Shown: piece by piece, positions 15,309-61,742 of the stretch | Numbering within the stretch: the stretch's first letter is position 1 | Layout of the letters: every line of letters starts with the position of its first letter | Assembly (NCBI GenBank): GCA_014169315.1 | Contig: AP022133.1 | Span: forward strand, 2,356,001 to 2,420,000 | Origin: Enterobacter cloacae | GTDB lineage: Bacteria > Pseudomonadota > Gammaproteobacteria > Enterobacterales > Enterobacteriaceae | DNA: 64,000 bases | Direction of reading: 5' to 3' | Notes under the pieces: generated by a model | What the model was told of the DNA's origin: nothing | Seen by the model: only the letters and a program-made list of their open reading frames with translations | Databases searched by the model: none | Made by a program: the position numbers and the translations under genes

Positions 15309-18300
15309 ATGCGTTTTTTATCAGCCCGGTTAATTAGCTTTCTTTTTACCTTGTGTTGTATGTGGCAACTGCACGCCCAGCCACTGGAACTGCAACGTCG
15401 TGCTCAGGTTAACGCACCACATGTCCAGTTTAGTGAGGCCGCGCAACGATGGCTGGATAACCATTCGACGCTGAATGTGGGTGTTTGGGGACAAGAACAG
15501 CCGCCGCTAAGCGAAGGGATGGGGCACGGCGTCTTTGGCGGTATTGCCGCTGATTACCTGGCACTGCTGGAAGACAGTCTGAAGGTAAAAATTAAGCTGC
15601 ATTACTACGAACACAGTAGTGAGGCATTACTGGCATTGCAGCGTCAGGAAATTCAGATGGTGGCTATCTGGAATCCGGCGCTGTGGCCAAGCCCGGATCT
15701 GCAAGCTTCACCACCGTGGTTACTGGATAAAGCGGTTCTGATGACCCAGAAAACGCCGGGGGAAACGCCTGTTGATCTGCGCAATAAAGTGATTGGGGTG
15801 GTCTCGGGAAGCCAGGCCAGCACGGCGCTGCAACGTCAGTACCCGGAGAGTACGCTGCGTTTTCAGTCATGGTATACCACCGCCATCAGTGCGCTAGCCT
15901 TTAAACAAATCGATGCGCTGTGGATTAACCGGGCCAGTGCGGAATATCTTACGCAATACCATCAGGTCAGAGACCTGAGCTGGACGTTCAGCCCGACGAT
16001 ACCTAATCTGAACATGAGTTTTGGCATTGACCGACAGCTCCCGTTGCTGGCGGAATCCATCGATACCGTATTTAAACATGTGTCCTTAGCCAGCCGTTTG
16101 CGCATTGCGACCAGTTGGGGTCTGAACCGTAGCTTTGTCATCACCACGAATCCACTGGGGTTAGATCCCAGGGAGGAAAGCTGGCTTCGCGAGCACGGAC
16201 AAATTCAGGTCATTATTGACCGTCGTCAAAGGCCAGTCTCGTTTGTCAGTGAGGGGGAACCCCAGGGGCTGGTGGTCGACTTGCTTAATCAGTTTAACGA
16301 TCAATACGGCATTCGCTTTTCGATCCTGAGCGTTGAAAACGATACCGAATTTCTGGCAATGAAGCGCGCTCATCCTGACGCGCTTTTTGTTGAACAGGTT
16401 GTCGATACGCCGCAGCAGACCAAAAGCGGTGCGGCCAAAACGCCCCCTTTACTGACCACGCCAGCCGTGGTGGTGATGGATCAGGGCATCAAGCGCCCGA
16501 GTGATTTTTCACAGCTGAAAGGTGAGAAAATTGCCATTCAGGCGAACGACCCGCTGTTGCCCTGGCTGGAAACCTGGTATCCCACCATTAAACTGGTGAA
16601 AGTCCCTCATATGGACGATGCCCTTGAACGGTTAAAGCGCGGTGAAGTACGTGGGGTGATTGCACCGCAGTTCATTGCCAGCTACCTCGTGACTCTCCAC
16701 CACCCAACCCGTTTTCATCTGGCGGTAACCCTTCCTGTGACACCTGTCGACCTGGTGTTGTCAGCGCAGACGGAAAGCAGCCAGCCGATTAATATCATGA
16801 ACAAAGCGCTGGCCGATATGCAGCCACGCGCACTGATGCAGATGGCGGGTGACTGGCGTCAGGCGGCGCTAGAAAACAGTGAAATCTGGAATAAAAGCAC
16901 GTTAGTGAACTCGCTGCTATGGAGCATATTGCTATTGCTGGTTGTGGTGGGCTGTTGGCTGTGGATCCAGTATTTACGCCGTGCATTACGCCGCGGCACT
17001 GTCTGGCAGCAGAAGCTGGCAGAGCAGCTGAAATTTACGCAATCGTTAATTGACGCTTCACCTGTTGCGCTTTATGTCCGCGATCGACAGGGGAATTTAC
17101 TGCGTTATAACCAGGCCTGGAGCGATACCATCGGTCTGTCAGGACAGGATCTGATAGGTTTGCCGATCACCGCCATTGATACGATTGAACCTTCGGAGTT
17201 AGCGGTGATCGAAAGCCGGTACCGCCAGGCGCTCCAGGATGGCCAGCCGCAGAACTGGTCCGCCAGATTTCAGATTGATGAGCAACCGCGATACTTACAG
17301 GGTTGGGTTGTGCCGTGGCATGACGGTCAGGGAGAGATTGGTGGGTTAATTGGCGGCTGGCTGGATATCACAGAAAAAGAGCTGTTGATTGCCCAACTTT
17401 CTGAAACAAAAAGTAATCTGGAACAGGCTATTGCCAGCAAAAACGCCTTCATGCTGAGCATGGGGCATGAAGTTCGCACACCGCTCAACGTGATTACGGG
17501 GTTGCTGGAACTGGAACTTCAGGCGCTGGACGAACGCCAGGAGCGCAATGAGAATCTGAATCTTATTTGGGAGTCATCCCTTAGTTTGCTCTCGCTAATC
17601 GGCGACATGTTTGATGTTTTCCGTGCTGATAACCCGCAACTACTTGGTTTAACGCGCAGCACGAATCTGCCGCAGCTGATCCACAGCACGGTAGCACTCT
17701 ATCGCCAGCAGGCTGAAGCTAAAGGCATTAGCCTGAACGTGTTGATTGAGCTTTCAGCGCAGCGCTACGATACCGACCCGCTGTTAATTATCCGTATCCT
17801 CTCCAGCCTCCTGCGTAATGCCATCAAACACGCTGACGGCGACGCAATTGATGTCGAGGTGTACGAGGGAAGCAGTGACCCACGCGTTGAAAGTGTCCGG
17901 CTGGTGATTGAGGTGTGCGATCGGGGGAGGGGCATTTCTGAACAAACGCAGGCACAGATCATCGAACGCACGAACAATGTGACGCTCAAATCAGAGTGGA
18001 CCGACACCGGTTTTAGCTTACCCGCTTGTCTGCATATGGCGCGTGCCGCAGGAGCCGAAGTGCGTATTGAAAGCGAGCCACACGAAGGGTGCGTGGTGAG
18101 TTTCCTCTTTGACGCCACGCCATCCGCGAAAATTACCCTGCATCACCCGACGCCGGACAGCCTTGCCAGCCTGCACATTCTGGTGGTGGATGATTATCCT
18201 CCCGCGCGTCAGACTTTACAGCAGCGGCTTGAGGCGTGGGGACATCGCGTCTCTTTAGCCACGCAGGGTGAAGAGGCACTGGCAATGTGGAAAGAGCAGC

Positions 18301-18857
18301 CTGAGGGCTATTCCGCCATTATTACGGACTGTACTATGCCGGTGATGGATGGTTACGAACTGACCCGGCAGATCCGCCAGCATGAACAACGGGAAGGGTA
18401 CCGGGCGATCCCCATTTTTGGTTTAACTGCCATGAGTGGTACAGAAGCGGCGGCATGTTGTATTGATGCCGGGATGAATGAATATCTGGAAAAACCGCTT
18501 ATGCCGCAAAAATTGCAGGAAATCCTGGAGCGGTATTTCGCCAGTCCCCGAAAAGCTGAAGTTGTCGCTGACGATAAAACACGTCAGCTTCAGCTCGAAA
18601 TGATAAAGGTGAATAACCAGGACGCCGACCAGCTTAAGCTGCGACTTGAACAGCGAGATCGCGATAAGGTTGGCCGCATGGCACACCGGATTAACGGCGG
18701 TGCGCGGATGATGCATTTTATGTCGCTGAAAGAGACATGTGAGGCGCTGGAAGTTGCCTGCAACAATGCGCAGGGCTGGGACACGATTGAGCCGCTGGTC
18801 GAACGTGTGCTGGAAGAGATGGAACAGTTTAATGAGTGGCTGGCACATCAGGAGTGA
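15309..18857 (+). CDS. EvgS/BvgS-like hybrid sensor kinase with PAS, receiver and Hpt
   Basis: 1182 residues. It has a signal peptide, two SBP_bac_3-like periplasmic domains (about 40-270 and 280-515), a membrane helix near 535-555 and a PAS domain (about 575-700). HisKA has His720 in MGHEVRTP. The HATPase has a recognisable N box (SSLLRNAIKHAD) and G1 (DRGRGIS), but the G2 box is degenerate: DTGFSL at 899-904 replaces GTGLGL. The receiver has Asp1007 (ITDCTMPV) and the Hpt has His1126 (MAHRINGG). The modules suit a phosphorelay, but its own ATP use may be impaired. It reads rightward and ends at a strong terminator. Confidence 0.92.
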   Translation: MRFLSARLISFLFTLCCMWQLHAQPLELQRRAQVNAPHVQFSEAAQRWLDNHSTLNVGVWGQEQPPLSEGMGHGVFGGIAADYLALLEDSLKVKIKLHYYEHSSEALLALQRQEIQMVAIWNPALWPSPDLQASPPWLLDKAVLMTQKTPGETPVDLRNKVIGVVSGSQASTALQRQYPESTLRFQSWYTTAISALAFKQIDALWINRASAEYLTQYHQVRDLSWTFSPTIPNLNMSFGIDRQLPLLAESIDTVFKHVSLASRLRIATSWGLNRSFVITTNPLGLDPREESWLREHGQIQVIIDRRQRPVSFVSEGEPQGLVVDLLNQFNDQYGIRFSILSVENDTEFLAMKRAHPDALFVEQVVDTPQQTKSGAAKTPPLLTTPAVVVMDQGIKRPSDFSQLKGEKIAIQANDPLLPWLETWYPTIKLVKVPHMDDALERLKRGEVRGVIAPQFIASYLVTLHHPTRFHLAVTLPVTPVDLVLSAQTESSQPINIMNKALADMQPRALMQMAGDWRQAALENSEIWNKSTLVNSLLWSILLLLVVVGCWLWIQYLRRALRRGTVWQQKLAEQLKFTQSLIDASPVALYVRDRQGNLLRYNQAWSDTIGLSGQDLIGLPITAIDTIEPSELAVIESRYRQALQDGQPQNWSARFQIDEQPRYLQGWVVPWHDGQGEIGGLIGGWLDITEKELLIAQLSETKSNLEQAIASKNAFMLSMGHEVRTPLNVITGLLELELQALDERQERNENLNLIWESSLSLLSLIGDMFDVFRADNPQLLGLTRSTNLPQLIHSTVALYRQQAEAKGISLNVLIELSAQRYDTDPLLIIRILSSLLRNAIKHADGDAIDVEVYEGSSDPRVESVRLVIEVCDRGRGISEQTQAQIIERTNNVTLKSEWTDTGFSLPACLHMARAAGAEVRIESEPHEGCVVSFLFDATPSAKITLHHPTPDSLASLHILVVDDYPPARQTLQQRLEAWGHRVSLATQGEEALAMWKEQPEGYSAIITDCTMPVMDGYELTRQIRQHEQREGYRAIPIFGLTAMSGTEAAACCIDAGMNEYLEKPLMPQKLQEILERYFASPRKAEVVADDKTRQLQLEMIKVNNQDADQLKLRLEQRDRDKVGRMAHRINGGARMMHFMSLKETCEALEVACNNAQGWDTIEPLVERVLEEMEQFNEWLAHQE

Positions 18858-26545: not shown

Positions 26546-27019
26546 AATGCCGTTTTAATTCTCAGAAATAATAGTAGGGAAGAGCCGTTCCGTTAAGCCG
26601 GAGCTTTTCCTGTTATATATCGTTGATGAATGGAGTAATGAGCGAGCATCTTTACCCAACGAAATGATAATAAAGCAGGATAAGGAATTTCGGGATATGC
26701 CTGTCAGGATGACAGAGATCCGTCGGAAACCGAGTGCGCACAAAAATAAGAGGAATTCCTGGCACGGTGCGGACTAAAGCAACGTTATCAGATCCACTAT
26801 GAACCAGGAGTGGACATGCCTCAGCAAAGTGCAGGTGAATTTCCTGTGTAACTGGAGCATGCACGCCGTGAACGCGATGCCTGGAAAACTGGAAAAACAG
26901 TTGTCAGGTGGTCAGCCTGATTATCTGATGGCAAGTGTGATGGTATCAGCGCTGGAAAAGGACTTTCAGAGGTCATCAACTACGACCACAAAACACCAGA
27001 TTTCACCTGAATCTATGTT
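26546..27019. other. gene-poor stretch before the dif-like site
   Basis: 474 bp. A weak GC hairpin with a G-U pair (about 26578-26610) may end the VIT transcript. A + strand frame of 79 codons (26799-27038) runs into the dif-like sequence, but it has no recognisable domain and no clear ribosome-binding site. I treat it as non-coding or a decayed remnant. Confidence 0.4.
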
Positions 27020-27049
27020 AGTGCGCATAATGTGTTGAACATGTTAAAT
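27020..27049 (+). repeat. degenerate dif-like Xer site
   Basis: The XerC arm AGTGCGCATAA differs from dif at one of 11 positions. An 8-bp centre (TGTGTTGA) is followed by ACATGTTAAAT, which matches 9 of 11 positions of the XerD arm. About 25 bp upstream also resemble the sequence upstream of the canonical dif at 30252. It probably marks the left junction of an element inserted by Xer recombination. Confidence 0.65.
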
Positions 27050-27230
27050 GACTGCACGAAGTGCTGGCATTTAGCCTTCTGCAATGAACTGCCAGACGTT
27101 GTTGCTTGTTTTCTGGCATAGAAAATCGCTGCAACAGCGGAATTACAGATACATCCTGAATGTTCGTTTTTTCTTATTAATAGATAGCATTGTGAAATGC
27201 CGGTTATTTTATGACTATTTTATAGCATCA

Positions 27231-28178
27231 TCAACAGGTTGTGGCAACACAGTTTATGTCGGGATTTCTGTTTTCCCACTGAAGTATGAGCCAGCGCAGG
27301 TAATGAACATAAACCTGTACATCACCATCAATCATGTAGCAATTACGCTGAATCTTTTTCGTGAGAGGCCAGAACAACACTGTGCCATAAGGGGTTTCAG
27401 ACAGGATTACTTTCATATTCCCGTTAAGAACAACTTCATAATTAATTTGATTGTTTTTTAATTCATCTTCAGCCTCCGTTAATATCTCATCTCGAATTTT
27501 ATTTATTTCATGATAATGCCCGGAAGGAATCTTCATGGCAACGCGTCGTAATCCAGCTTCCCTGGCATTTTCTTCTGTGCTGATAAATGCCACCGTGTCA
27601 GCAGAATAAATGCGCCGATGTGAATAATCTTTATCCAGCTCAAACTCTCCCGGATTATCCTTCCATTTGTTGTAGCCATGCAATTTTGGAAGGTCATTGC
27701 AGAAGTTCTGAAAGTTATGCCATCGCTCGCATACAGTGACACCTTTGTAGCCTTTAAAATACTGCTTTCCTTTGGTTGTCATGTAGCACCTTGCCAGCAT
27801 GTTATGCCAGAGTATGAATGCTCTCGTTCTTTGGTGTGTTCGGGTGTTTTCAATGGTTGAATGACATCCATTACCAATATATCCGACGCCGTAATATTTT
27901 GGTGTCATCAGTAACTTTCGTCGTTCTTCCTCCGATGATGGAAAAGCTTCGTCTGATACAGAACCAGTTTTAATATGCGAGCCATAGGCTTCCTTGATGA
28001 TGCCACTGTCTTTGAATTCCACGACATAATAGCCTCGCCTTGATTTATCATCAGAGCGACCAAGAATGGCGCATTCTCCATTATGTCGGGTTCTGAATGT
28101 TGCACCGGGAAACAATACGTCATGAGTATAATTTTGATGAAAGCAATTATTACGGATGCCTTTTTTGTGGTGGGGCAT
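27231..28178 (-). CDS. phage-type HNH/AP2-like protein
   Basis: 315 residues, preferred ATG at 28178 with AGGAG upstream; an in-frame ATG 42 bp earlier lacks one. The central part (about 125-195) has the pattern of phage homing-type HNH/AP2 proteins: LWHNMLARCY, GYKGVTVCERWHNFQNF, then ELDKDYSHRRIYS. I do not see a clear catalytic HNH triad, so nuclease activity is uncertain. Function unproven; such genes are frequent in phage and island DNA. Confidence 0.6.
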   Translation of the reverse strand: MPHHKKGIRNNCFHQNYTHDVLFPGATFRTRHNGECAILGRSDDKSRRGYYVVEFKDSGIIKEAYGSHIKTGSVSDEAFPSSEEERRKLLMTPKYYGVGYIGNGCHSTIENTRTHQRTRAFILWHNMLARCYMTTKGKQYFKGYKGVTVCERWHNFQNFCNDLPKLHGYNKWKDNPGEFELDKDYSHRRIYSADTVAFISTEENAREAGLRRVAMKIPSGHYHEINKIRDEILTEAEDELKNNQINYEVVLNGNMKVILSETPYGTVLFWPLTKKIQRNCYMIDGDVQVYVHYLRWLILQWENRNPDINCVATTC

Positions 28179-29001
28179 GATATTTCTCCTGCGTGATTTA
28201 ACTGAAAGGGAAGGGAGCAAAAAGAATCGGGGCGGGTCCTTCTTTTTCGATTCACCTTCAGTCAGGCACTCATGCCGGAGAGATGGATTATATTTATGTA
28301 ATCACTTCAAAAAAAATAAAATATAAAATTTTTCAAACAATGAATTGTGACAGATGATGGTACAAACCGTCAGGCGCTCTGTGTGGCATCATTAATACGG
28401 CACATACAAATGCGTCAGGTTGCAGCCGGATGCGCTCAGATGGCTGTACAGATGCAATAAACAGGGCGGAACAGGGGGGGGGTTGCCAGTGTGAGAGGGC
28501 GCATATGCCTGACAATTGCAGGGCTGTTTATTTATACAGTATCTGGTATTTTGCTTACATCGTGACCGCTGACTGCCTGTATGCGGTTTTGGGGTGATTT
28601 TGCCCTTAGTCATGGTTTTGCATTGCCACTGACTCTGGCGTTGCGCATGGTGCATTACAGGGAGCGCACTCAGGGTCAGGACTGCGCCGGAATCACCCGA
28701 CAGGGTGGGGGGAATAAAAAAATAAATATAACCGTTTTACAGATTTAAATATTCGTGCTACCATCGCCAAATCGCCAACCGGGGTTAATTCTTTTATATA
28801 TCTGTTCTGTTGTTCTCTTATATAGACTTACTGTTTAATTGTTATTATCGGTTTTCTGTACTTATCTGCATCTGTCTTTGATGTTTCAATATTATCCCAA
28901 TATTAAGCCCTCCGCAGGAGAGCCATGCGGCTTGAGCTGACAATAACAACAAAAAGAAAATAAGAATCCCCACAAAAGTGAAGACTCTTACCCGGCATGA
29001 A
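28179..29001. other. non-coding stretch between the two insert genes
   Basis: 823 bp. It includes AT-rich blocks (28280-28340, 28720-28860), an eight-G run near 28478 and no reading frame with a plausible start and domain. I see nothing coding in it. Confidence 0.45.
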
Positions 29002-30093
29002 CTAGAATTTAAAATTGAGGGATGGATTACGGAACACTCCGTAAACTTCATTACTCATAGGGCTAAGCCTCATTCCCTTCGATGCCTGCAATACCACAGA
29101 GCAAAGCTCTTCATCTCCGGATTTCTTCCTGGCTGACAGAACCTCACCTTTCTGTGACATCCAGACATTTATTGAGCATTCTTTTCCTGAAAAACGCGTC
29201 GCATCACCAATTCGCCGCATAAATTCATTTCTGAGTGAAGACTGAAAGCGTTGAAAATCGGGGGAGTCAAGGCGAGCACTCTTGGATTTATAATCGTCAG
29301 CCTGCTTTGTTTTGTTGGTGGCACTTTGTTTTCCGGCTGCATCTGCTTTCTTCTTTGCAGCCGCTTTCTCCCTTGCTGTAGCATCACTTTTTTCTGTGTT
29401 GTTTTTGCTGCGAGGCTTTGGGTATTCCGAACCAGAACGATAAGCACTTAAATACACTTCTTTGCCAATATCATTCATTCCAGCCAATATTTTTGAGTCA
29501 ACCGACTGGCGATTGTTACCCGCCATAATTCCCGCAAAACACACCATCTGAAACTCGCCTTTGATTTGATTCCACTCAGCTAATGAAATCTGCACTTGTG
29601 GGGGGAGATTCGAGGTTGAATATTTGGCTGCTTTAGATGATATGTCATCGCATATTTCATTTGGATTAAATGTGCTTACTGGTTTTTCTTTTTGCTCGGG
29701 CGGCCTCGGATAGTCAAAACCAGAGAATCCATTCAGCATTGCATAGTAAAGCAGGCTCCCCATGGCTGCTGAAAATTTTTTCTGCTCTTCATTTCCCCCG
29801 GGAAGACTGGAGTCAGTCCATTTCCTTGCTTCAGCAAGAGAGTGAGCATTGGCAGCTTCAAATCCCATGTCGCCCATGGTTCTGCCTTTATTGCAGAACG
29901 CAGTCAGTGCATCTTTAAATTTTTTCGATTCCGTCTTGTACTGACTGAATGCGGTAATGGTGTCCATGCCGTACTGGCTGACAGGATGGTTATCGCAGTC
30001 TTTATTGATACCCAGTGAGTCGGCATTTGCCGAACAGGTAAATGGCAGCAGGCTTGCACTTATTACAGTCGCAGCAAGTATTAATCGTTTCAT
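29002..30093 (-). CDS. secreted protein with TolA domain III-like C-terminus
   Basis: 363 residues. Signal peptide 1-24 (cleavage near ANA-DS). An unknown Cys-containing domain covers 25-215, then a Lys/Ala-rich linker at about 225-265 (AREKAAAKKKADAAGK). Residues 270-363 align with TolA domain III: the FSGKECSINV... segment parallels YAGKTCTLRI, the second Cys falls in GDEELCSVVLQASK, and the end EVYGVFRNPSLNFKF parallels AVYEVFKNAPLDFKP. TolA-III binds TolB, colicins and filamentous-phage pIII. This protein lacks a membrane anchor, so it could be a soluble periplasmic decoy or modulator (inference). Confidence 0.75.
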   Translation of the reverse strand: MKRLILAATVISASLLPFTCSANADSLGINKDCDNHPVSQYGMDTITAFSQYKTESKKFKDALTAFCNKGRTMGDMGFEAANAHSLAEARKWTDSSLPGGNEEQKKFSAAMGSLLYYAMLNGFSGFDYPRPPEQKEKPVSTFNPNEICDDISSKAAKYSTSNLPPQVQISLAEWNQIKGEFQMVCFAGIMAGNNRQSVDSKILAGMNDIGKEVYLSAYRSGSEYPKPRSKNNTEKSDATAREKAAAKKKADAAGKQSATNKTKQADDYKSKSARLDSPDFQRFQSSLRNEFMRRIGDATRFSGKECSINVWMSQKGEVLSARKKSGDEELCSVVLQASKGMRLSPMSNEVYGVFRNPSLNFKF

Positions 30094-30251
30094 TTGAATC
30101 AGTCCCGAAGAGAAACTTCAGGGTGAGCTGTAATTCTGTGAAAGGCCGCAAGACATTTCAACCGTTAGGCGAACCAACCAGACTCAGCACATCCATATTC
30201 TGCGAGAACAAGGATGCCCACAAATCACTGGATTCTGCCTGAATCCAGGTT

Positions 30252-30279
30252 GGTGCGCATAATGTATATTATGTTAAAT
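30252..30279 (+). other. dif: chromosome dimer resolution site dif
   Basis: Exact match to the E. coli 28-bp dif: XerC arm GGTGCGCATAA, 6-bp centre TGTATA, XerD arm TTATGTTAAAT. This is where XerC/XerD, activated by FtsK, resolve chromosome dimers. FtsK-orienting octamers seen by eye point toward it from both sides. It sits at the boundary between the 3.2-kb insert and the prophage. Confidence 0.95.
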
Positions 30280-30471
30280 AAGGCGTGGTAACGAGTAAAC
30301 CGCTTGTTAACTGCTTTAAAACCAGGAAACCCTGATTCCCCATGCAGTTAAGCCTATATGTAGTTCGAACTAAAAGCAACTACAAACAAGCGTCATACAT
30401 CACACCCCCGCCCTTTTCATTCACTCATAACCCGCATCAATGATAAACGGGCATTAATTGATCCGTTTCGA

Positions 30472-31005
30472 TCACTCAACAGATCGCGTTACCGCGTCAT
30501 AGGTGCGCTCGCAGACGCTCCCGGCGCTGACTGCTGCATCAGCATATTGAGCGAGTTCTCCCGCGCGGCGGTCAGATTCTTCGTACAGGTCGGCAAGCAT
30601 ATTGATGGCCTCGGCGGCTGTCTGCCTGCCGGCGACATTTGCGGAAAGCCTGCCTGTCTCACTGGCTGCGAGTTTATGCCGGATATCTGCGATCGCTCCG
30701 CGCAACCGGCCAGCAACATCATTAGCGGCAGCAGCCTCAGCCAGCGCGTTCTGTTTCTCTGTTTCTGCATTCCTGACAATCTCCTCAGTTTCATCCTTCC
30801 TGCGGCGTTCTTCGTCGCGCTGTGCTTTTTCCTGTGCCAATCGTGCGGCTTTATCTGCCAGATCCCGGTTAGCCCATTTGGTTTTCCATTCCTGGTCGCT
30901 GGCGCTTTTGCCTGCCTCATAGCTGTTGTGATGGATAGCCCAGCCAATACCACCCAACGACGCGCCTACGAACAGACAAATAGCAACGGCGTATTTAGCT
31001 TTCAT
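30472..31005 (-). CDS. i-spanin (Rz-like, DUF2514 type)
   Basis: 177 residues. An N-terminal signal-anchor (about 5-23, VAICLFVGASLGGIGWAI) and a periplasmic coiled coil rich in Ala/Glu/Arg (40-130) match inner-membrane spanin subunits that fuse inner and outer membranes at lysis. It overlaps the endolysin stop by 4 bp. A second lysis gene is nested inside it in another frame. Confidence 0.85.
   Translation of the reverse strand: MKAKYAVAICLFVGASLGGIGWAIHHNSYEAGKSASDQEWKTKWANRDLADKAARLAQEKAQRDEERRRKDETEEIVRNAETEKQNALAEAAAANDVAGRLRGAIADIRHKLAASETGRLSANVAGRQTAAEAINMLADLYEESDRRAGELAQYADAAVSAGSVCERTYDAVTRSVE
30489..30770 (-). CDS. o-spanin lipoprotein (Rz1-like), nested in the Rz-like gene
   Basis: 93 residues read in a different frame entirely inside the i-spanin gene. 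After a basic N-terminus comes a hydrophobic segment ending in a lipobox, LLAGC, with Cys at residue 23. The mature part is Pro/Gln/Ser-rich, as in Rz1. The chosen ATG has GAGGAG about 11 nt upstream. The nested layout is the one known from lambda Rz/Rz1. Confidence 0.8.
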   Translation of the reverse strand: MQKQRNRTRWLRLLPLMMLLAGCAERSQISGINSQPVRQAGFPQMSPAGRQPPRPSICLPTCTKNLTAARENSLNMLMQQSAPGASASAPMTR

Positions 31006-31538
31006 TTATCTAATCCCCAGCACGTTAATTCCGACTCCTGGTCACGCCGGATAACCTGCCCAAAGCAGTTATTTTCCCGCACACGACAATCACGCCCGGC
31101 ATCATGCACCCAGCGTTTTATTTCTGCGCATGCCCCTAATCTGTCTCCTGCGTTTAGCTTTCGGTAAAACGTAGAAGTAAAGCATTTGCCGGGGCCAATA
31201 TTCCACGGACAGAATGAAGCTATGCCAACCTTTTGCGGCTCGGTTAATTGCACCCTGACATTTTTATCCACCCATGCCAGCGCCTTTTCTTGTTCCGCTT
31301 TATCAATTTTGTCGCACTGCGCTTGCGTTAATTTCATGCCTCTGATTACCGGCTTTCCGTCAACGTAAGTAACTCCGCCGCAAATAGTCCAGATCCCCCG
31401 GCTTTTATCCTGATAGGCTATTAAACTGGTTCCTTCTTTTTCATGCTGGAATTGAGACATTAAAACCGGGGCGCTCGCTCCAGCTGCAATTAACGCCAGC
31501 ATAGCGGCGCTTAGTTTTGATTTATTTCCCACCTTCAC
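31002..31538 (-). CDS. SAR endolysin (glycoside hydrolase 24 lysozyme)
   Basis: 178 residues. The N-terminal weakly hydrophobic segment (10-27, Ala/Gly-rich) is typical of a signal-arrest-release domain. Catalytic-type residues Glu35, Asp44 and Thr51 occur in HEKEGTSLIAYQDKSRGIWT. Several Cys residues could control activation after release. It degrades peptidoglycan at lysis. It overlaps the holin gene by 17 bp. Confidence 0.93.
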   Translation of the reverse strand: MKVGNKSKLSAAMLALIAAGASAPVLMSQFQHEKEGTSLIAYQDKSRGIWTICGGVTYVDGKPVIRGMKLTQAQCDKIDKAEQEKALAWVDKNVRVQLTEPQKVGIASFCPWNIGPGKCFTSTFYRKLNAGDRLGACAEIKRWVHDAGRDCRVRENNCFGQVIRRDQESELTCWGLDK

Positions 31539-31803
31539 CCCCGGCCTGTAAGAGGTATTTTTTCCTTTCGTAATACCAGTTCACCATGCATGTTATGACA
31601 GTGCATAAAATACCAATAATCACAGCCCACTCATTCAGGGAAAACATTGCCAGCATTGCGGTAATCAGCCCTATACGATATTTTAACCAGTTCCAGAATT
31701 TTACCGCGCTGACTGCAACGCTGATGCACAGCGCAAGCGCGATCGCCAATCCCAGGCGCTTTTGGTCTAATAATTCATTAACCCTTTTGCGCAGACTCCC
31801 CAC
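31522..31803 (-). CDS. holin / pinholin-like membrane protein
   Basis: 93 residues with two to three hydrophobic segments (about 17-33, 43-56, 60-75) and a basic C-terminus (YYERKKYLLQ). Position directly before the SAR endolysin supports a holin role: depolarising the membrane and triggering endolysin release. Confidence 0.85.
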   Translation of the reverse strand: MGSLRKRVNELLDQKRLGLAIALALCISVAVSAVKFWNWLKYRIGLITAMLAMFSLNEWAVIIGILCTVITCMVNWYYERKKYLLQAGGEGGK

Positions 31804-36080: not shown

Positions 36081-37448
36081 TTAAACTCCGTAAGTCATGG
36101 CTGAGCCAACAGCATCAACATGCTTAATGGCGTAGCGGAGGTAGAATTCGAACAGGATAGTGATATCACCGTTAATGCGCTGTGTTGCGCTGACCTGCGC
36201 CATAGTTGGGCGCGTTACGGTAAAGCCACGAACCAGATCGCCGTTTTCGTCGGTGAAGTCCTGGAGGATCCCGCCCGCATCTTTACCGGCTTGCAGGGAG
36301 CTTTCCATTTTGGCGCAGACAACCTCGTAGCCCGGTAGGTCATGACCGATTTTGTTACGGTTCACGAACAGGGTTGCGAGGTCTTTTTGCATGCGGTCTG
36401 CCTGCCAGTAGGCGAAGCGGATAACCTCGATTGACTCACCGTCACCCGTCAGGCCGGGATAAGTCACCGTGATGCCAGAACCGTAGTCCTCAAACGTGTT
36501 GCCGTTGAGCGCACGGATTTTCTGGTAATCGGTTTCGGTGAAGTCATCCGCCTGCACTGCGTTAAGCGTCTTAAGCGCCCAGGTCTCAGAACCCGGCTGC
36601 ATAACAAGGCAACGCCCGGCCAGGGCCGCATCAAGGAAGTTTTTAGCCCGCTTTGTGCTGACTGCAAACGATCCGGCCATGTTCTTATCGTGGATGTATT
36701 TGGTAATGTTATCCGTTGCCCAGGTGGAAACGGTGTAATCATCAATAAACACGCCCATCTTGTCGATTTGGGCTTCTACCCAGTCAGCGATCGCCTTCTG
36801 CACCGACAGAATACGAACCGGTGTCATGCACATGAAAAACTTGTTGTACTGGTTTTTGATGGCCGCAATAGCTGTCGGAACAGCAGCAGCTGTCGCCGTT
36901 GATTCAGCGTGAACAACCTCAGCGCCCTCCAGATAGACAATGCGTCCGTCCACAGTGAATCGCCCTGACCCGCCAGAATCCGCCACAATGTCCGCTGCCG
37001 CGCCAGTGCTTCCTGACCAGGCGGTTCCGTTGTAGCTGGCATAGCGGTAATCGTTGCCTTTGATATACCCAATGGTCGCTTTCGTAGCCGATGGCGCACC
37101 AGCAACCGGAACGCCGTTAAGTGCAATCATGGTTTTGGTGTAGACCGCCGACAAATCACCGACGACCAGGGTATCCGGCGCGGGCTTCTGTGAGAAGTAC
37201 GCCTGAACCGCCAGCAGGTTATCGCCGGAAATCCCATCCGTGGCCGCGTCGTTCGCCGCGTTAGCGCCACTGTAAACGCGGTACAAATCAGTAAATTTGC
37301 TGATATCTGCGCTATCGTAATTTGAGTATTTCAGCCCAAAGAACGCCGCAGCAGGCGCAAGGATAATCCCCACGCCGAAAACCCCATATTGGGCCGCAGT
37401 CGCCTGCCGCCCAATCTTCACGCTAAAAAGCCTGCTTAAATCTGCCAT
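36081..37448 (-). CDS. tail sheath protein (DUF3383)
   Basis: 455 residues. The start MADLSRLFSVKIGRQ and the C-terminal FVNRNKIGHDLPGYEVVCAKMESSLQ ... RGFTVTRPTMAQVSATQR fit DUF3383 sheath proteins. It contracts to drive the tube through the envelope, so the phage has a contractile tail. Confidence 0.88.
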   Translation of the reverse strand: MADLSRLFSVKIGRQATAAQYGVFGVGIILAPAAAFFGLKYSNYDSADISKFTDLYRVYSGANAANDAATDGISGDNLLAVQAYFSQKPAPDTLVVGDLSAVYTKTMIALNGVPVAGAPSATKATIGYIKGNDYRYASYNGTAWSGSTGAAADIVADSGGSGRFTVDGRIVYLEGAEVVHAESTATAAAVPTAIAAIKNQYNKFFMCMTPVRILSVQKAIADWVEAQIDKMGVFIDDYTVSTWATDNITKYIHDKNMAGSFAVSTKRAKNFLDAALAGRCLVMQPGSETWALKTLNAVQADDFTETDYQKIRALNGNTFEDYGSGITVTYPGLTGDGESIEVIRFAYWQADRMQKDLATLFVNRNKIGHDLPGYEVVCAKMESSLQAGKDAGGILQDFTDENGDLVRGFTVTRPTMAQVSATQRINGDITILFEFYLRYAIKHVDAVGSAMTYGV

Positions 37449-40021: not shown

Positions 40022-40960
40022 TTAGATAACCTTCGAGGATTTAGCCGCAGCCAGCGGAGCGCGAACAATCACGCCAGCAGTTTTGGACAGGCAAGGGATA
40101 GACAGGTCGAGGCCAGAACGCTGAACCGGTAACTGACGGAACAGGATCGGCGTAGCCTGGGCGAAGTGACGACGGGTGTTATCCAGCGCAATGCAGATGC
40201 CGTCATCATCCAGATCGGAGTTTTTGCGGAAGGTGATTTCCGGGTACGACGCACGCAGGAACGACAGCACAGTACCCAGCGTACCGGACAGGCGCAGACC
40301 CTGAATGCGTGACCAGGCTTTGGACGGCATATGGAACTCATTCACCTGGTAGATTTTGGTGGAGTTAACCGCCGAAATCAGCGCAGAGGCGTCATCACAG
40401 ATTTTGTCACCGTCAGCTGCAGCCCAGCCACCAGCCAGCGCCACCAGCGGGATGTTTGGATGCTCGATAAAGCCGACAATCTGGTATTCCTTGTTGCCGC
40501 GCCACAGCAGGTTGCTGACGGTGCGCTCATGCGCTTCGCGGGTATTCAGCGCCAGGATGTTATCAAGCGGTGTGCCGGACATTGCCGCCGCCAGAACGTC
40601 AGAGTAGGTGTAACCATAGCCCAGGCCAATGTCGTACATCAGCGCGAAGAACTCGCGGCCTTTGGCGCTCATCATCGGCATATCAGTGCCGTAAGCAGCC
40701 ATGATTTTAGCCATGCCTGCGGCGGAGTACATGCGATAACCTGCCCACTTCGCCCCTTCACTGATGCCAGGCTCCTGCGCAAACATGGTCAGCGCCACAG
40801 GTGCTGGCATTTCTTCCATGTAAACGTCATTGGACATGGAAATCAGGTCGCGGGCGAAAATCAGCCCCTGCTCATCCGTGTTGAGGTTCGGAATGGAGCC
40901 GCCCGCCTGCGCTTCCGCCAGCAGCTGCTGCATCATTTGAGCAATTAATTTCTCGTTCAT
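40022..40960 (-). CDS. major capsid protein (DUF2184)
   Basis: 312 residues. It contains the family-typical EEMPAPVALTMFAQEPGISEGAKWAGY and GYGYTYSDVLAAAMSG segments. HK97-fold capsid proteins of this family need no long N-terminal delta domain. It lies directly after the cement and DUF2213 genes. Confidence 0.88.
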   Translation of the reverse strand: MNEKLIAQMMQQLLAEAQAGGSIPNLNTDEQGLIFARDLISMSNDVYMEEMPAPVALTMFAQEPGISEGAKWAGYRMYSAAGMAKIMAAYGTDMPMMSAKGREFFALMYDIGLGYGYTYSDVLAAAMSGTPLDNILALNTREAHERTVSNLLWRGNKEYQIVGFIEHPNIPLVALAGGWAAADGDKICDDASALISAVNSTKIYQVNEFHMPSKAWSRIQGLRLSGTLGTVLSFLRASYPEITFRKNSDLDDDGICIALDNTRRHFAQATPILFRQLPVQRSGLDLSIPCLSKTAGVIVRAPLAAAKSSKVI

Positions 40961-42785: not shown

Positions 42786-44118
42786 TTTCTCTCTCCGCGT
42801 CTGCTACATCCGACGCAGAGAACAACCATTCAGGGTAACAGCGGCAACCGTGAGGCTGGCCGGGGTTTCCGTCTCGTGGCGGTCTGGTCGGCGTATAGGC
42901 CTGTCCTTCCCGCACAACATGCAGTTTTCGCTCGCGCTCGTCTAACATCCCGCGCCAGCGGTAATATTTCATCCCGGCAACGCGGGCGTTGGCCTCTTCC
43001 AGATTCCAGGCCTGATTGCCAATCTCATTGCGGGCGACGTTGCGGGCCCGTCGCCAGGGGATCTCCATTTCGTCAGCAAGTTTGTTGGCGATATCGTCAA
43101 CGCCCCGGCCCTCGCGTAGCCCCTGCTGCATGGTCTTGATGCCACGCTGCAATGCCTCTTCGCTGACGTTCTGCATCCTGCCCATGCTGGCGTCCAGCCA
43201 GTCAGAGGTTTGTTGCAACAGCTTTTTATCGCCGTCATAGATATCAATCGAAATCAGGTCGGCCATGCTTTCATGCGGCAGCGTGATGCCGGGGGCGAGA
43301 TCCACATCAGCAGCAGCGCGGATAATCAGCCTGAAATCGTCAACCGCTGAGTTGAGCACCTGCGTGCTGGCAGCGTCCATTGCAGCCAGTGACGGGGCCG
43401 CGCTGGCCTCGCGCATGGTTTCGGTAAGTGACAGAAGCTGTTTTGATACCGCCCCGGCTGTGTCTGCTGTTGCCGCTGCGCCCGTTTTCAGGTCGATAAG
43501 CGGCACGCCGTCAACACGGAAACGCTGGTAATAGGTTTCGTAATAAGCGTCGGTAAAACCAAACTTACCGTTGACGATCGCCGCCTGCACATCATCGGCG
43601 GTTTTGTTGATAGCGCGGATAAAAGCGTCAGGCGTGGTGTTATTGGCCTTTGATACGGCTTTCGCCAGGCTGATAGCTGATTGCCTGCGTACCTCGCTGA
43701 TAGCGTAAGCCGGTACAGCGCCGAACTCGCCATCTTTCAGCAGTGCGGGAATGGCCCGCAGAAATAGCGCCGAATCCGGCGCAATCTCCATCGCAACGGC
43801 GCGGATAATGGATTTCTGCTTTGCGCGGGTCAGCTTCGAGAAGTTTCTCCCCATCTGCTGGCGTATATAAACGCGCACTTTTTTAACCGTTGCCGCCGTG
43901 ACCAGCTCGCCCAGCAGGTCATCAACTGAAATATCCCGACCGTCTGCCGCGTCAGTATTCACGACCGCGCCGGATTTCCCGATCGCGCGGTACGTCTTTA
44001 AACAGGCATCACGAACCCATTTACCGTATTGTCGGGCGCTGTCACCCAGGCGCTGAGCGTAGACCGACTCGATCGCCAGCGGATAACCCGCGTCATACCG
44101 TGGCTCACTCTTTGCCAT
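42757..44118 (-). CDS. head morphogenesis protein (SPP1 gp7 / Mu gpF family)
   Basis: 453 residues from the ATG at 44118 (GAGG upstream); a longer frame to 44202 would overlap the portal gene further. The C-terminal domain has the family pattern: RNEIGNQAWNLEEANARVAGMKYYRWRGMLDERER ... HGCRCYPEWLFS. It takes part in capsid assembly and DNA packaging or ejection. A truncated paralogue of the C-terminal domain lies at 47664-48089. Confidence 0.88.
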   Translation of the reverse strand: MAKSEPRYDAGYPLAIESVYAQRLGDSARQYGKWVRDACLKTYRAIGKSGAVVNTDAADGRDISVDDLLGELVTAATVKKVRVYIRQQMGRNFSKLTRAKQKSIIRAVAMEIAPDSALFLRAIPALLKDGEFGAVPAYAISEVRRQSAISLAKAVSKANNTTPDAFIRAINKTADDVQAAIVNGKFGFTDAYYETYYQRFRVDGVPLIDLKTGAAATADTAGAVSKQLLSLTETMREASAAPSLAAMDAASTQVLNSAVDDFRLIIRAAADVDLAPGITLPHESMADLISIDIYDGDKKLLQQTSDWLDASMGRMQNVSEEALQRGIKTMQQGLREGRGVDDIANKLADEMEIPWRRARNVARNEIGNQAWNLEEANARVAGMKYYRWRGMLDERERKLHVVREGQAYTPTRPPRDGNPGQPHGCRCYPEWLFSASDVADAEREIAARNPSQQ

Positions 44119-45484
44119 TGTTGGCCTCGCTCTGGCCCTCTTTGGTGCCTCCCTGGTTCGATTTATCCTGATTCTGGTCTGAATCGTCGTCGTTCTGGTC
44201 ATCTATGGTGCCAGTGGCGGGCGGAGTGGTAGAGAGCAACTTAATGGCCCCGGTTTCCTGTGCCGTTGCCCGCACCTCTTCACTGGTGATTGCACGCATG
44301 GCGTAGTAAAGCTGAGCCGTCTCAGCGACTTTCTTATCCCGCTCAACCTCACGGTCAATCTGCCCCTGGCTCTTGTTCGGCACGAACTCGGCCCGGATAC
44401 CCAGGTAGCGCAGCGCCAGCTTTTTCAGTGCCGGAATGATGTCATTGGTGGTGATGTGCGAAACCAGATTCTGCCATTGCGCGTCTGCGCTGGTATCGCT
44501 GTTCGACAGCCCACCCTTACGCTCGGCCAGCATTGCGATCGGGAAACCTGTTTCGGCGCAGACCAGCTTTATAGCCATATCGACCAGGTCAGCCGTTCCG
44601 GTCATGACGGTTTGCAGGCGCTCAATAGACTCATCCTTATCCACTGCAATCATGTCGTTTAGCTGCCGCGTTGCCGCGATGCCGCCAATGCGCCGGGCTA
44701 CCTGCGCTTCACCTTTGGCAGTTTTTAAATCCTCCGCCAGCTCCTCCTTTTTGTAGATGTCCTGAACCGACAGCGAGAGGATGCTGATTATCAGCTCATG
44801 GGAGAGGCCCAGCCGCTGCAATGAGGCGTAAGGCTTGCTGAGTAGCGGTGCGCCAAATTCAATGCCTGCGCAGGCGTAAATGGGCTGGTATTCTGGATCC
44901 CCGAAAAGGATAGAATCGCCCTGCTCAATGAATACCTCGCCACCGACCGGGCTTTTTAACTGGATGCGCCAGCCCTCCGGCAGGCCGAACATCGGTGAAT
45001 TGTAATCGGTGAACCAGTCATCAGACGGGGTAATCCAGTTCGCGCCGTGGCTGCGCACCCACTCTTCCCCCATGACCAGCACAGACCACCCCATGTGACG
45101 CTTAAGGACAACGGCCTTTTCAACGCACTGCCACACCCGCATGTCGCCAAACAGGTCTTTAATTTTCTCAGCATCATCCGGGTTATCAGTAACCACCGTG
45201 AACTGGTTCAGCATTGCCGCCGCAACAGGCTCAGTGATAATGCGCCAGCCAATCCCTGACGTTTCCCCGGCCATTGCCGCCACCAGCGGAATCATCCCCT
45301 CAGCAGAACGGGCTTTCATGCGGTTTGCCGTTGGCGACCCCATCCCGGCAGCGCCCTGCGAAAGACCGCCCGCCGCAACGCTGGTCATCATGCTGACGTA
45401 GCCGTCATGGTTGTACTGCGCGGGCATTACGCCCTCTTTGGTCAGGATCCCCTCTACGGGAATCAGGCTTGCTTTACTCGTCAT
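44105..45484 (-). CDS. portal protein (DUF1073)
   Basis: 459 residues, Phage_portal_3/DUF1073 type. It has YDGYVSMM, the ADLVDMAIKLVCAETGFPIAMLAERKGG region and a C-terminal Asp/Asn/Gln-rich tail. Some database names for this family mention an Acb1-like domain, but the position between terminase and head morphogenesis genes supports a portal. It overlaps the terminase stop by 4 bp. Confidence 0.88.
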   Translation of the reverse strand: MTSKASLIPVEGILTKEGVMPAQYNHDGYVSMMTSVAAGGLSQGAAGMGSPTANRMKARSAEGMIPLVAAMAGETSGIGWRIITEPVAAAMLNQFTVVTDNPDDAEKIKDLFGDMRVWQCVEKAVVLKRHMGWSVLVMGEEWVRSHGANWITPSDDWFTDYNSPMFGLPEGWRIQLKSPVGGEVFIEQGDSILFGDPEYQPIYACAGIEFGAPLLSKPYASLQRLGLSHELIISILSLSVQDIYKKEELAEDLKTAKGEAQVARRIGGIAATRQLNDMIAVDKDESIERLQTVMTGTADLVDMAIKLVCAETGFPIAMLAERKGGLSNSDTSADAQWQNLVSHITTNDIIPALKKLALRYLGIRAEFVPNKSQGQIDREVERDKKVAETAQLYYAMRAITSEEVRATAQETGAIKLLSTTPPATGTIDDQNDDDSDQNQDKSNQGGTKEGQSEANNGKE

Positions 45485-46890
45485 TGGATAATTCCTGATT
45501 TCATGCGTACCAGATGCGGGAAAATGGCGTCGGCGTAGTCCGTGGACACGCCCAGCCGCTGCTTAACTTTTTTCTTCGCTTCAATGATGATTTTGTCCTC
45601 TGGGGTGGTTTCCCACATAACGCCAGTGGAGTCAGAGAGGATGCGATCGAGATAGCGGCGCGGGATATCGCTGGAGATGGCGAACAGTCCATCAGGCGGC
45701 ATGATGTCACTATCCAGCCAGCGCACCGTATCATTGACCGCGTCGCGGTATGACCACCACGCCTGGGCGCGGAGGTTATGGAATGTCTCTTCGTTGTTGC
45801 GGCCACCGCGATAGCGTGATTTTTTACGCAGCACCTCGCCCTGGGCAACGAACTTACGGAACTCAATTTCTGAGTCATCAAACTTATTCAGCTCACCTTT
45901 AACGCCGGAACCAACGCCCACAGAGTCATAAATCAGTACGGCGCAACCTTCCTCTGTTGCCAGTTTCAGCGCCTGCTGCGCCAGCTGCACGGTGTCACGC
46001 GCTTTGAGTCGCTCCATACGGTAAAGAAAACGACCGTTAAAGAACGCCAGCACAGAATCGTCATCGCCATCGTCGGCAACGTCGAGCACTGCCGTTTTAA
46101 CGCCAGTGCGACATGCTTTCGCCAGGCGTGAATCAGGTTTAACAACCAGCCTTTCGAGATTACCGCGATGCACTACCGCGCCCGGTAGGTCATTGACCGG
46201 AACGCCATTCCAGATGTTGTCGTAGCGATCAGGGTAATATTTCAGGGTGTAGAGGCGCTCTTTATCCAGCGTCGAGTTAAAGAACGGGTTGTGATACCAG
46301 TTCACCTCTTCAACGAACCAGTCATCTTCTGCATTGAGCACGAACCGCACATAGGTTTCATCCCAGGCAAACGCCGGGTTAAAGGTAATCCACAGCTCCG
46401 CACCTTCACGGCGTAGCGTTGGTGCCAGGGTTTCCCATGCCTCAGCAGAAATGGCGTGAGCCTCTTCCACCCAGCAAATGTCGATACCCTCAATGGATTT
46501 GATGCTGTCCAGGTTCGACTGGAACCCCAAAAACCTGAACTCAGCGCCAGATTTAGCCTTGATGCTGTTCTGCGTTATCGTGAACTCAGCTTCATAGCCC
46601 AGACGGCGAATCGTGTCGGCCAGCAACTTATGGGATGAAGCGTCGATAGATTTCTGCACCCGGCGCAAGCACAGCACGCGCAGGTCATAACGTACAGTCA
46701 GCTCAATCAGCGCCTCAGCGATTCGCCACGACTTACTGGAACCACGGCCACCACGCAGGCATTTAACGCGGTGCGGTTTGGTGGTTAACGCACGCATAGT
46801 GCGCCGCCACTCGGCCATTTTCTTTTTTTCGGTTAGCCAGTAGCTGCGCCGTTCTAAGTCATGCTCTGGTGTTGTCTCAATCGCTGTCAT
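45481..46890 (-). CDS. large terminase subunit
   Basis: 469 residues. The packaging ATPase motif is Walker A-like CLRGGRGSSKSW, with Walker B-like IDICWVEEAHAIS. The C-terminal RNaseH-fold nuclease is indicated by the acidic TAVLDVADDGDDDS and later LIYDSVGVGSG segments. It cuts and packages DNA into proheads through the portal. Confidence 0.93.
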   Translation of the reverse strand: MTAIETTPEHDLERRSYWLTEKKKMAEWRRTMRALTTKPHRVKCLRGGRGSSKSWRIAEALIELTVRYDLRVLCLRRVQKSIDASSHKLLADTIRRLGYEAEFTITQNSIKAKSGAEFRFLGFQSNLDSIKSIEGIDICWVEEAHAISAEAWETLAPTLRREGAELWITFNPAFAWDETYVRFVLNAEDDWFVEEVNWYHNPFFNSTLDKERLYTLKYYPDRYDNIWNGVPVNDLPGAVVHRGNLERLVVKPDSRLAKACRTGVKTAVLDVADDGDDDSVLAFFNGRFLYRMERLKARDTVQLAQQALKLATEEGCAVLIYDSVGVGSGVKGELNKFDDSEIEFRKFVAQGEVLRKKSRYRGGRNNEETFHNLRAQAWWSYRDAVNDTVRWLDSDIMPPDGLFAISSDIPRRYLDRILSDSTGVMWETTPEDKIIIEAKKKVKQRLGVSTDYADAIFPHLVRMKSGIIQ

Positions 46891-60594: not shown

Positions 60595-60852
60595 TTAGCA
60601 CATGCTGGAGAACGCCACCTCAACCTCTGAGGCGTTGAGCGTGCATAAATCGGTATAGAGCGCCATTGCGTCAGCCAGAAGCTGGCGACCACCCATTAAT
60701 ATCTTCTCGTTGTTCCGGTCGATTAATTCCACGCGGTAAATAGATGGCGCTGCTTTTAAATTAGTGCGCAACTGGAGGCATTTAAATACGCATCCGCGCG
60801 GATAATTCGTTTTATACATTACGTCATTGTCTTTAATAGCCGCTGTTTTCAT
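60595..60852 (-). CDS. early phage hypothetical protein
   Basis: 85 residues, overlapping the recombinase stop by 4 bp. No recognised domain. Probably co-translated. Confidence 0.55.
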   Translation of the reverse strand: MKTAAIKDNDVMYKTNYPRGCVFKCLQLRTNLKAAPSIYRVELIDRNNEKILMGGRQLLADAMALYTDLCTLNASEVEVAFSSMC

Positions 60853-61742
60853 TTTTCTACCTTAACGCTGAGGTAATCATCAATAGAGTTTTTTAACGCT
60901 TTGCGCATCGCTGAATATGGCGGAGACTGCAAATAAGCAGCTGGCACATCTTTAACTGCATGGTTAAGAATTAACTCCACCGCTAAATAATCCTCTCCAC
61001 GAACGGCTGAGGCTGTACGGAATACCTTTCTTAGGTCATGGCTGCGCCATTTAATCCCGGCGCGAGACACCACCGTATTAAGCGTGTTGTATTTGATTTC
61101 TGAGTCCTCAATCACCCCTATCCACTCAGTTACCAAAGGTACGTATTCCAGAGGAACGGGCAGCAGCAGATCCGAATGCGTTTTCGTGTGTCTGTCAGGC
61201 ACGAACAGGCGACCGCCAGCCAGCATGGATGTGCGCTTGAGCGATAGTGTTTCTGATACCCTGAAACCAAAGCACAGCATCAGGCGCAGGACGCACCTGT
61301 AAGGCTCCCTGACCGATTCGATATCGCGTACCACATCAACGTATTCAGTAACGCTAACCCGGCCCGGCTTGCTTAGTGCGCGGTGCCGTTTAATGCGTTT
61401 TCCGATTGACCGGGCGGCGGTGCGCATGGCATCCAACATGCGCCCTAGCGAACCCGGCGCGGCGGGTTTGAATTTAATATCAGCGTGAATCACCCAGGCC
61501 ACAACTGCAGCAACACAGTCAATACGCTGGCGAACCGTGGAGGCCGCAAGGCCAAGATCGATACAGCGGTCGGCGTACCGGATCCATGTATCCGGTACGC
61601 TGGCGGCGCGAACCCCCAGCGACAGAACCGGCTCTAGCATACGCACGGCGTGGCGTTCGTTAATGATGGTTTTTTCGCGCAAACTGACCGCCCTGGCGCG
61701 GCGGTCAACCATTACCAGTAAATCACTAAGCATTGCTGACAC
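60849..61742 (-). CDS. tyrosine recombinase (phage integrase family)
   Basis: 297 residues. The N-terminal SAM-like core-binding half is followed by a catalytic domain with Arg in CFGFRVSETLSL, the Lys region at RHTKTHSDLLL, HDLRK, the NHA box and a candidate nucleophile Tyr in DVPAAYLQ. A start three codons later is also possible. It lies amid early genes, about 30 kb from the dif-proximal end of the prophage, so a role other than dif integration is possible, or the other att lies nearby beyond the window. Confidence 0.85.
   Translation of the reverse strand: MSAMLSDLLVMVDRRARAVSLREKTIINERHAVRMLEPVLSLGVRAASVPDTWIRYADRCIDLGLAASTVRQRIDCVAAVVAWVIHADIKFKPAAPGSLGRMLDAMRTAARSIGKRIKRHRALSKPGRVSVTEYVDVVRDIESVREPYRCVLRLMLCFGFRVSETLSLKRTSMLAGGRLFVPDRHTKTHSDLLLPVPLEYVPLVTEWIGVIEDSEIKYNTLNTVVSRAGIKWRSHDLRKVFRTASAVRGEDYLAVELILNHAVKDVPAAYLQSPPYSAMRKALKNSIDDYLSVKVEK

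Follow-up and report, generated by a model that had tools for sequence, protein, structure and literature searches.

Tailed prophages at dif that probably integrate by their own tyrosine integrase and carry the XerD half of the site

Introduction

It is well known that mobile elements reside at dif, the site that is required for chromosome dimer resolution and that lies in a single fixed orientation at the terminus. According to the portions of the published descriptions available, the VGJ and TLC types of V. cholerae and the UP-phi phages of Enterobacterales insert at dif and rebuild it at one junction, a degenerate dif-like site remaining at the second; TLC retains the XerC side and the centre, and the UP-phi repeats correspond to the first 15 bases of dif (PMC5357621, PMC4246890, PMC7307601). 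Enterogokushoviruses form prophages at dif that are flanked by one conserved and one variable dif motif (PMC7062461). Tailless Vibrio prophages at dif carry integrase genes, and their authors leave open, in the text available, whether the host or the phage recombinase acts (PMC11630473). The NO16/PM2 phages are non-filamentous and also lie at dif (PMC9966536); in the part of the PM2 description available, the presumptive dif retains TTATGTTAAAT and its XerC side is poor.

The locus analysed here, a 64,000-nucleotide stretch of the Enterobacter cloacae chromosome (positions 2,356,001-2,420,000) referred to as the window, carries a prophage that resembles each of these systems in some respects. 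Within the same limits of the sources, it shares with the VGJ, TLC and UP-phi elements insertion at dif, a rebuilt dif at one end and a degenerate site at the other; those elements, however, are small filamentous phages or satellites that use host XerCD and keep the XerC side, whereas the present 35-kb phage is tailed, retains the XerD side and encodes an integrase of its own. With the enterogokushoviruses it shares one conserved and one variable flanking dif motif, but these phages are described as being about 4.5 kb long, as having no integrase and as varying in the spacer and XerD arm of the downstream motif, which is the opposite side (PMC7062461). With the tailless Vibrio prophages and NO16/PM2 it shares a non-filamentous nature, location at dif and, for some, an integrase; as far as their available descriptions go, they are small, lack tails and infect Vibrio and marine bacteria, and those descriptions contain no junction analysis of the present kind. 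In the portions of the open-access literature searched, no lineage of tailed phages was found that encodes an integrase and copies the XerD half of dif.

Results

An intact dif between two elements

The 28-bp dif GGTGCGCATAATGTATATTATGTTAAAT has a single exact match in the window, compared with none in 100 shuffles, and is single copy in the whole 4,998,275-base genome with up to three mismatches allowed, which bears out the original prediction of a canonical E. coli dif at this place. Its half-sites were assigned by what we take to be the E. coli layout of 11+6+11. This layout agrees with the available portions of published descriptions of Xer-exploiting elements. The same 28-mer is found in E. 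coli 2017-02-1CC (L208:9256-9283), with hipA on one side and a recombinase pair on the other. In the present genome, the cumulative GC skew reaches its maximum just left of dif. A VIT-family protein encoded nearby has 95% identity to Enterobacter records, so that this single gene points to Enterobacter as the probable host. The features at and around the site are as follows.

30252-30279, + strand: dif, which is also attL of the prophage; XerC arm 30252-30262, centre 30263-30268, XerD arm 30269-30279; exact match
27020-27049, + strand: dif-like site with XerC arm AGTGCGCATAA, 8-bp centre TGTGTTGA and ACATGTTAAAT; left edge of the 3.2-kb element
27020-30251, no strand assigned: 3.2-kb XerC-side element with HNH-endonuclease-like and TolA C-terminal domain genes
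27231-28220, - strand: HNH-endonuclease-like gene, 329 aa
29002-30093, - strand: TolA C-terminal domain gene
30280-65014 (30280-64000 inside the window): prophage, 34,735 bp, delimited by its junctions, the empty site and gene content
30290-30309, + strand: phage-side motif AACGAGTAAACCGCTTGTTA beside attL, similar in most relatives

As had been predicted, dif lies exactly between a 3.2-kb insert on its left and contractile-tail phage genes on its right, both directly abutting. The XerC arm of dif is variable in the genus: among 30 loci (L178-L207) it reads AGTGCGCATAA in 15 and GGTGCGCATAA in 9, and five further forms account for the other 6.

The 3.2-kb insert looks like an ordinary XerC-side element, in which the XerC arm is kept at the left edge, the centre and XerD side differ, and dif stands at the right. 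Similar DNA is present in 97 of 5426 E. coli genomes, and in 29 of them a single place spans 80% or more of the query. In 2017-02-1CC, two dif-like sites between hipA and dif each open a copy of the element with the same hypothetical protein; the copies are in tandem (L208:2592-9255) and have the same dif-like site at each left edge. Since the element keeps the XerC side with dif on its right, dif is occupied on both sides, XerC-side elements coming in on the left and the phage on the right. The TolA-domain protein of the element might have a bearing on filamentous phage entry.

Both prophage junctions and the empty site

The right junction was found at window coordinate 65014, 1 kb past the window end. 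An exact 19-bp repeat, AATGTATATTATGTTAAAT, occupies 30261-30279 (+) and 64996-65014 (L002:2996-3014, outside the window) and comprises the centre and XerD arm of dif. At attR it is preceded by ACCTTATCG in place of GGTGCGCAT, and none of the first nine XerC-arm bases matches; the prophage thus ends in an intact dif at attL and in a half-dif with a replaced XerC arm at attR. Scored as a 28-mer, attR matches dif at 19 positions and the next best place in the same 40 kb at 18; because this score is near background, the evidence for attR is the unbroken 19-bp run. The longest other exact word common to 26901-30420 and the right-hand 40 kb is at most 12 bp, and a 19-bp exact repeat is expected by chance in 35 kb with a probability of about 3e-7. 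The word TATATTATGTTAAAT is present in 59 of 60 genus genomes and occurs twice only in that of the window; the one genome of the 60 in which it was not found in exact form (G075) has either a gap in its 200-contig assembly or an altered dif.

An uninterrupted site is provided by three genus genomes (G001, G025 and G078), in which the DNA right of the intact dif matches the DNA right of attR, beginning in all three at the same 47-bp offset with identities of 68%, 68% and 72%. Eight genus genomes, that of the window included, match the sequence right of attR; the match spans only 30 bases in G016, G069 and G008 and 72 bases in G086, and it is placed at dif in G001, G025, G078 and the window's own genome. 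Likewise, beyond attR of the prophage in E. coli ECONIH4 the sequence agrees with that found right after the empty dif of 2017-02-1CC, the first 29 bases differing at two positions. The dif homology at the right junction and the empty dif loci, in the three relatives and one E. coli, are the outcomes that the original prediction had called for, a right junction devoid of dif homology being the result that it named as contrary.

Phage gene content and relatedness

The prophage has head, tail, packaging and lysis genes together with an integrase gene and an attL/attR core, and on this gene content it is classed as a putative temperate contractile-tailed phage. The assigned genes include the following.

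60849-61742, - strand: tyrosine recombinase (integrase), 297 aa (PF00589, PHROG integrase, alignment, model)
36081-37448, - strand: tail sheath of a contractile tail (phrog_205, DUF3383)
45481-46890, - strand: terminase large subunit (PF04466)
44105-45484, - strand: portal protein (phrog_146, PF06381)
40022-40960, - strand: major head protein (phrog_264)
30472-31803, - strand: lysis genes (DUF2514, lysozyme, HP1-type holin)

Tape measure, neck, head protease, head morphogenesis, Erf, Ref, spike-like and baseplate genes are also present. The sheath, portal, terminase and major head proteins of the prophages in K. spallanzanii and in E. coli ECONIH4 and CX12 are 77-91% identical to those of the window phage; in CX12 and ECONIH4 the head protein is divided between two loci, each of which gave a match. 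A megablast comparison of 24 kb of the phage with 50,697 phage records gave no match; the best terminase match among those listed has 36.9% identity, all 1305 matching records lie below 60%, and the best integrase match has 32.5%. The integrase was sought in 60 relatives and in 392 family genomes and turned up each time in the window's genome only, so the phage is rare per species. A PADLOC search with six proteins gave no match.

That a contractile-tailed prophage abutting dif is unusual, as had been proposed, is in keeping with the open-access literature in the portions searched: they yielded no description of a tailed phage that sits at dif and encodes an integrase, and prophage catalogues may list such phages without naming dif.

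The integrase

Residues R161, K187, H235, R238, H261 and Y270 of the integrase are the six catalytic positions and are invariant in 27 aligned sequences, so that the protein is a complete tyrosine integrase with all catalytic residues. Its structure model has the tyrosine-recombinase fold, and full-length fold matches include archaeal Xer and XerA; a sequence search of solved structures gave no match. Its length is about that of a Xer protein. The best NCBIfam match is XerA at 18.6 bits versus a cut-off of 220, and by curated cut-offs the integrase does not belong to the Xer family. A XerD model detects 10 places in the genome, the phage integrase not being among them; the host has one XerD above the family cut-off and a second Xer-like gene. 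The Brujita mycobacteriophage integrase and lambda Int share 15-17% identity with the phage integrase, and their attachment sites differ from that of this phage. Because the model begins with core-binding helices, the lambda-type arm-binding domain of lambda Int is not seen in it. The gene lies approximately 3.3-4.2 kb from attR and does not adjoin it.

The original prediction had implied that the prophage belongs with Xer-exploiting elements. Its location exactly at dif was upheld; the implied membership fared less well, in view of a complete tyrosine integrase of its own and an attP that is XerD-sided and has no good XerC arm, which is the reverse of the Xer-exploiting elements in the available portions of the published descriptions.

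Recurrence of the arrangement across the phage lineage

Integrase relatives, which were gathered without reference to dif, lead to dif in K. spallanzanii, B. gaviniae, Buttiauxella sp. B2, and E. coli ECONIH4 and CX12. Seven prophages were seen to have both ends of this arrangement on a single contig, and two more to have them on separate contigs; the former include that of K. spallanzanii, with 34.6 kb between attR and attL, and the latter are those of B. gaviniae and Buttiauxella sp. B2. At the Y. pekkanenii integrase locus dif is present and attR was not found. Of 5426 E. coli genomes, three contain the integrase and these three also contain the terminase; ECONIH4 and CX12 were read at both ends, and CX08 is the third.

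Among 32 viral records whose integrases have 44-98% identity, 19 contain the XerD-side core TATTATGTTAAAT, at 22 places that fall, by position relative to the integrase, into 15 far-end sites (attL) and 7 near-end sites (attR). XerC-arm bases are matched at 9-11 of 11 positions at all 15 viral attL sites, within the spread of the genus (9-11 of 11 over the 30 loci), and at 2-8 of 11 at the viral attR sites, four having 2-5 and the other three 6, 6 and 8. Four attR sites in genomes match 0-4 of the first nine XerC-arm bases (0-2 in the window, K. spallanzanii and B. gaviniae). Three viral records hold both ends, 34.0-35.1 kb apart, and the reversed pattern occurs in 0 of the 32. The 13 viral records in which no half-site was found include five that were inspected, all of which break off where a gene ends, before the expected attL is reached. 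The XerD-side core was absent from all 32 sister-clade records (terminase identities of 33-38%), hand-picked from the 69 less related terminase loci among 80 retained from the matches listed, and from all 10 distant-integrase loci within the stretch retrieved. One phage with a 79%-identical integrase carries a variant core, AAGCTATATTATGTTAAAT (L025:6326), which indicates that core drift does not simply follow the integrase clade.

A proposed route of integration and its alternatives

Both junctions, the repeat, the empty site and the recurrence across the phage lineage are direct observations. We consider it likely that this temperate tailed phage uses dif as attB by means of its own tyrosine integrase. 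The attP would carry dif's centre and XerD arm, a stretch of 19 bp in the present case, and no good XerC arm; recombination inside the common stretch would place the phage directly right of dif, where the host XerC arm and the phage's centre and XerD arm would rebuild a full dif (attL), attR being left with a half-dif only. The exchange is probably catalysed by the phage integrase, and the rebuilt dif presumably still works; lack of a XerC arm at attR would protect the prophage against XerCD/FtsK excision between attL and attR. In favour of this reading are the exact repeat, the collinear empty site, the recurrence among integrase relatives together with the negative controls, the co-occurrence of integrase and terminase, the invariant catalytic residues and fold of the integrase, and the poor XerC arm at attR. 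Against it count the partial XerC arms of a few attR sites, the distance between the integrase gene and attR, the Y. pekkanenii locus and the 13 viral records in which no half-site was found.

An unlikely alternative is that host XerC and XerD alone integrate the phage through a XerD-side exchange, as a mirror of the XerC-first VGJ-type route, the integrase being a helper or having another role. Consistent with such a route, all attL and attR sites found have an intact XerD arm, these sites having been selected partly by that stretch, and some attR sites retain phage bases in the XerC-proximal centre (AAGCTATA..., AACGGTTA...). Retention of these bases places the exchange there within TATATTATGTTAAAT, and in one record within TATTATGTTAAAT; they would be left equally by the phage integrase or by a XerD-side exchange. 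The host, moreover, has the XerD above the family cut-off and the second Xer-like gene, the three viral attR sites with 6, 6 and 8 XerC-arm bases are perhaps still XerC-bound, and XerD-first integration without FtsK by the TLC phage provides a precedent in the published text available. However, a recognisable XerC arm is missing from most attP sites, whereas published elements, in the portions available, retain the XerC side, and a complete integrase is conserved together with the site over 44-98% identity.

A mixed complex, in which the integrase replaces XerC on the left half of attP and host XerD occupies the XerD arm, is very doubtful. A tyrosine recombinase needs an overlap of about 7 bp, and the invariant XerD arm is, at 11 bp, longer than needed, in sites that were selected partly by that stretch; the Xer-like length of the integrase and its fold matches to archaeal Xer and XerA also fit. 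However, the integrase falls below the curated Xer cut-offs and could equally bind a XerD-like arm itself, and no precedent was found in the literature searched. If such a complex did form, dif would have two insertion ports, each rebuilding the one functional dif between them, with XerC-side elements stacking on the left and XerD-side tailed phages on the right. An assembly error, or chance proximity of dif and an unrelated prophage, might be entertained from the presence of the window's own copy in one genome only, and is refuted, to the point of being exceedingly improbable, by the same junctions in complete E. coli chromosomes, Klebsiella, Buttiauxella and several viral contigs.

A dyad around the attP core (TTACTCGTT and its relatives) is suggestive only and is not claimed to mark arm sites: in nine attP sites, own pairs score a mean of 7.4, cross pairs 5.9 and shuffled ones 5.6, a score of 7 being reached in 17% of shuffles.

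Sparing of dif and KOPS polarity

Since dif is needed for dimer resolution and its orientation is fixed, a resident phage must spare it. The present lineage apparently manages this with a copy of the XerD half, in mirror image of the published elements as far as the available text describes them. It offers a system for asking whether a phage integrase acts at dif without Xer, a question left open for the tailless Vibrio phages in the available part of that report (PMC11630473), and what consequences a 35-kb prophage next to dif has for FtsK and dimer resolution.

KOPS were counted with the sequence that we take to be the motif. Forward and reverse sites number 6 and 0 left of the 3.2-kb element, 1 and 0 inside it, 0 and 4 in the window phage and 0 and 4 right of attR; the phages of K. 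spallanzanii, ECONIH4 and CX12 have 0 and 3, 0 and 4, and 0 and 3, respectively. All KOPS sites in these phages point to dif, but the phages are related, and the motif may follow the coding strand. The left flank of K. spallanzanii, with 2 forward and 3 reverse sites, goes against a simple polarity picture.

Other features near dif

Right of attR (L002:3537-8198), ORFs resembling a peptide-exporting ABC transporter, an HlyD-like partner and a CPBP protease were noticed by eye, together with small, microcin-like double-glycine precursors. Two large ORFs farther on (L002:9220-19963) resemble GTPases, and others there are very large, at 665 and 1309 aa. Two EvgS-like hybrid sensor kinases with periplasmic solute-binding domains lie near dif, at 10409-13354 (-) and 15309-18857 (+). 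The left flanks of dif in the genus loci, judged by eye, are of a few recurring types. In three E. coli, a site-specific integrase gene pair followed by a 2.4-kb hypothetical gene stands right of dif and is possibly another dif-resident element.

L208:9430-14727, L209:10988-16285 and L210:10338-16383: integrase pair and 2.4-kb hypothetical gene in the three E. coli
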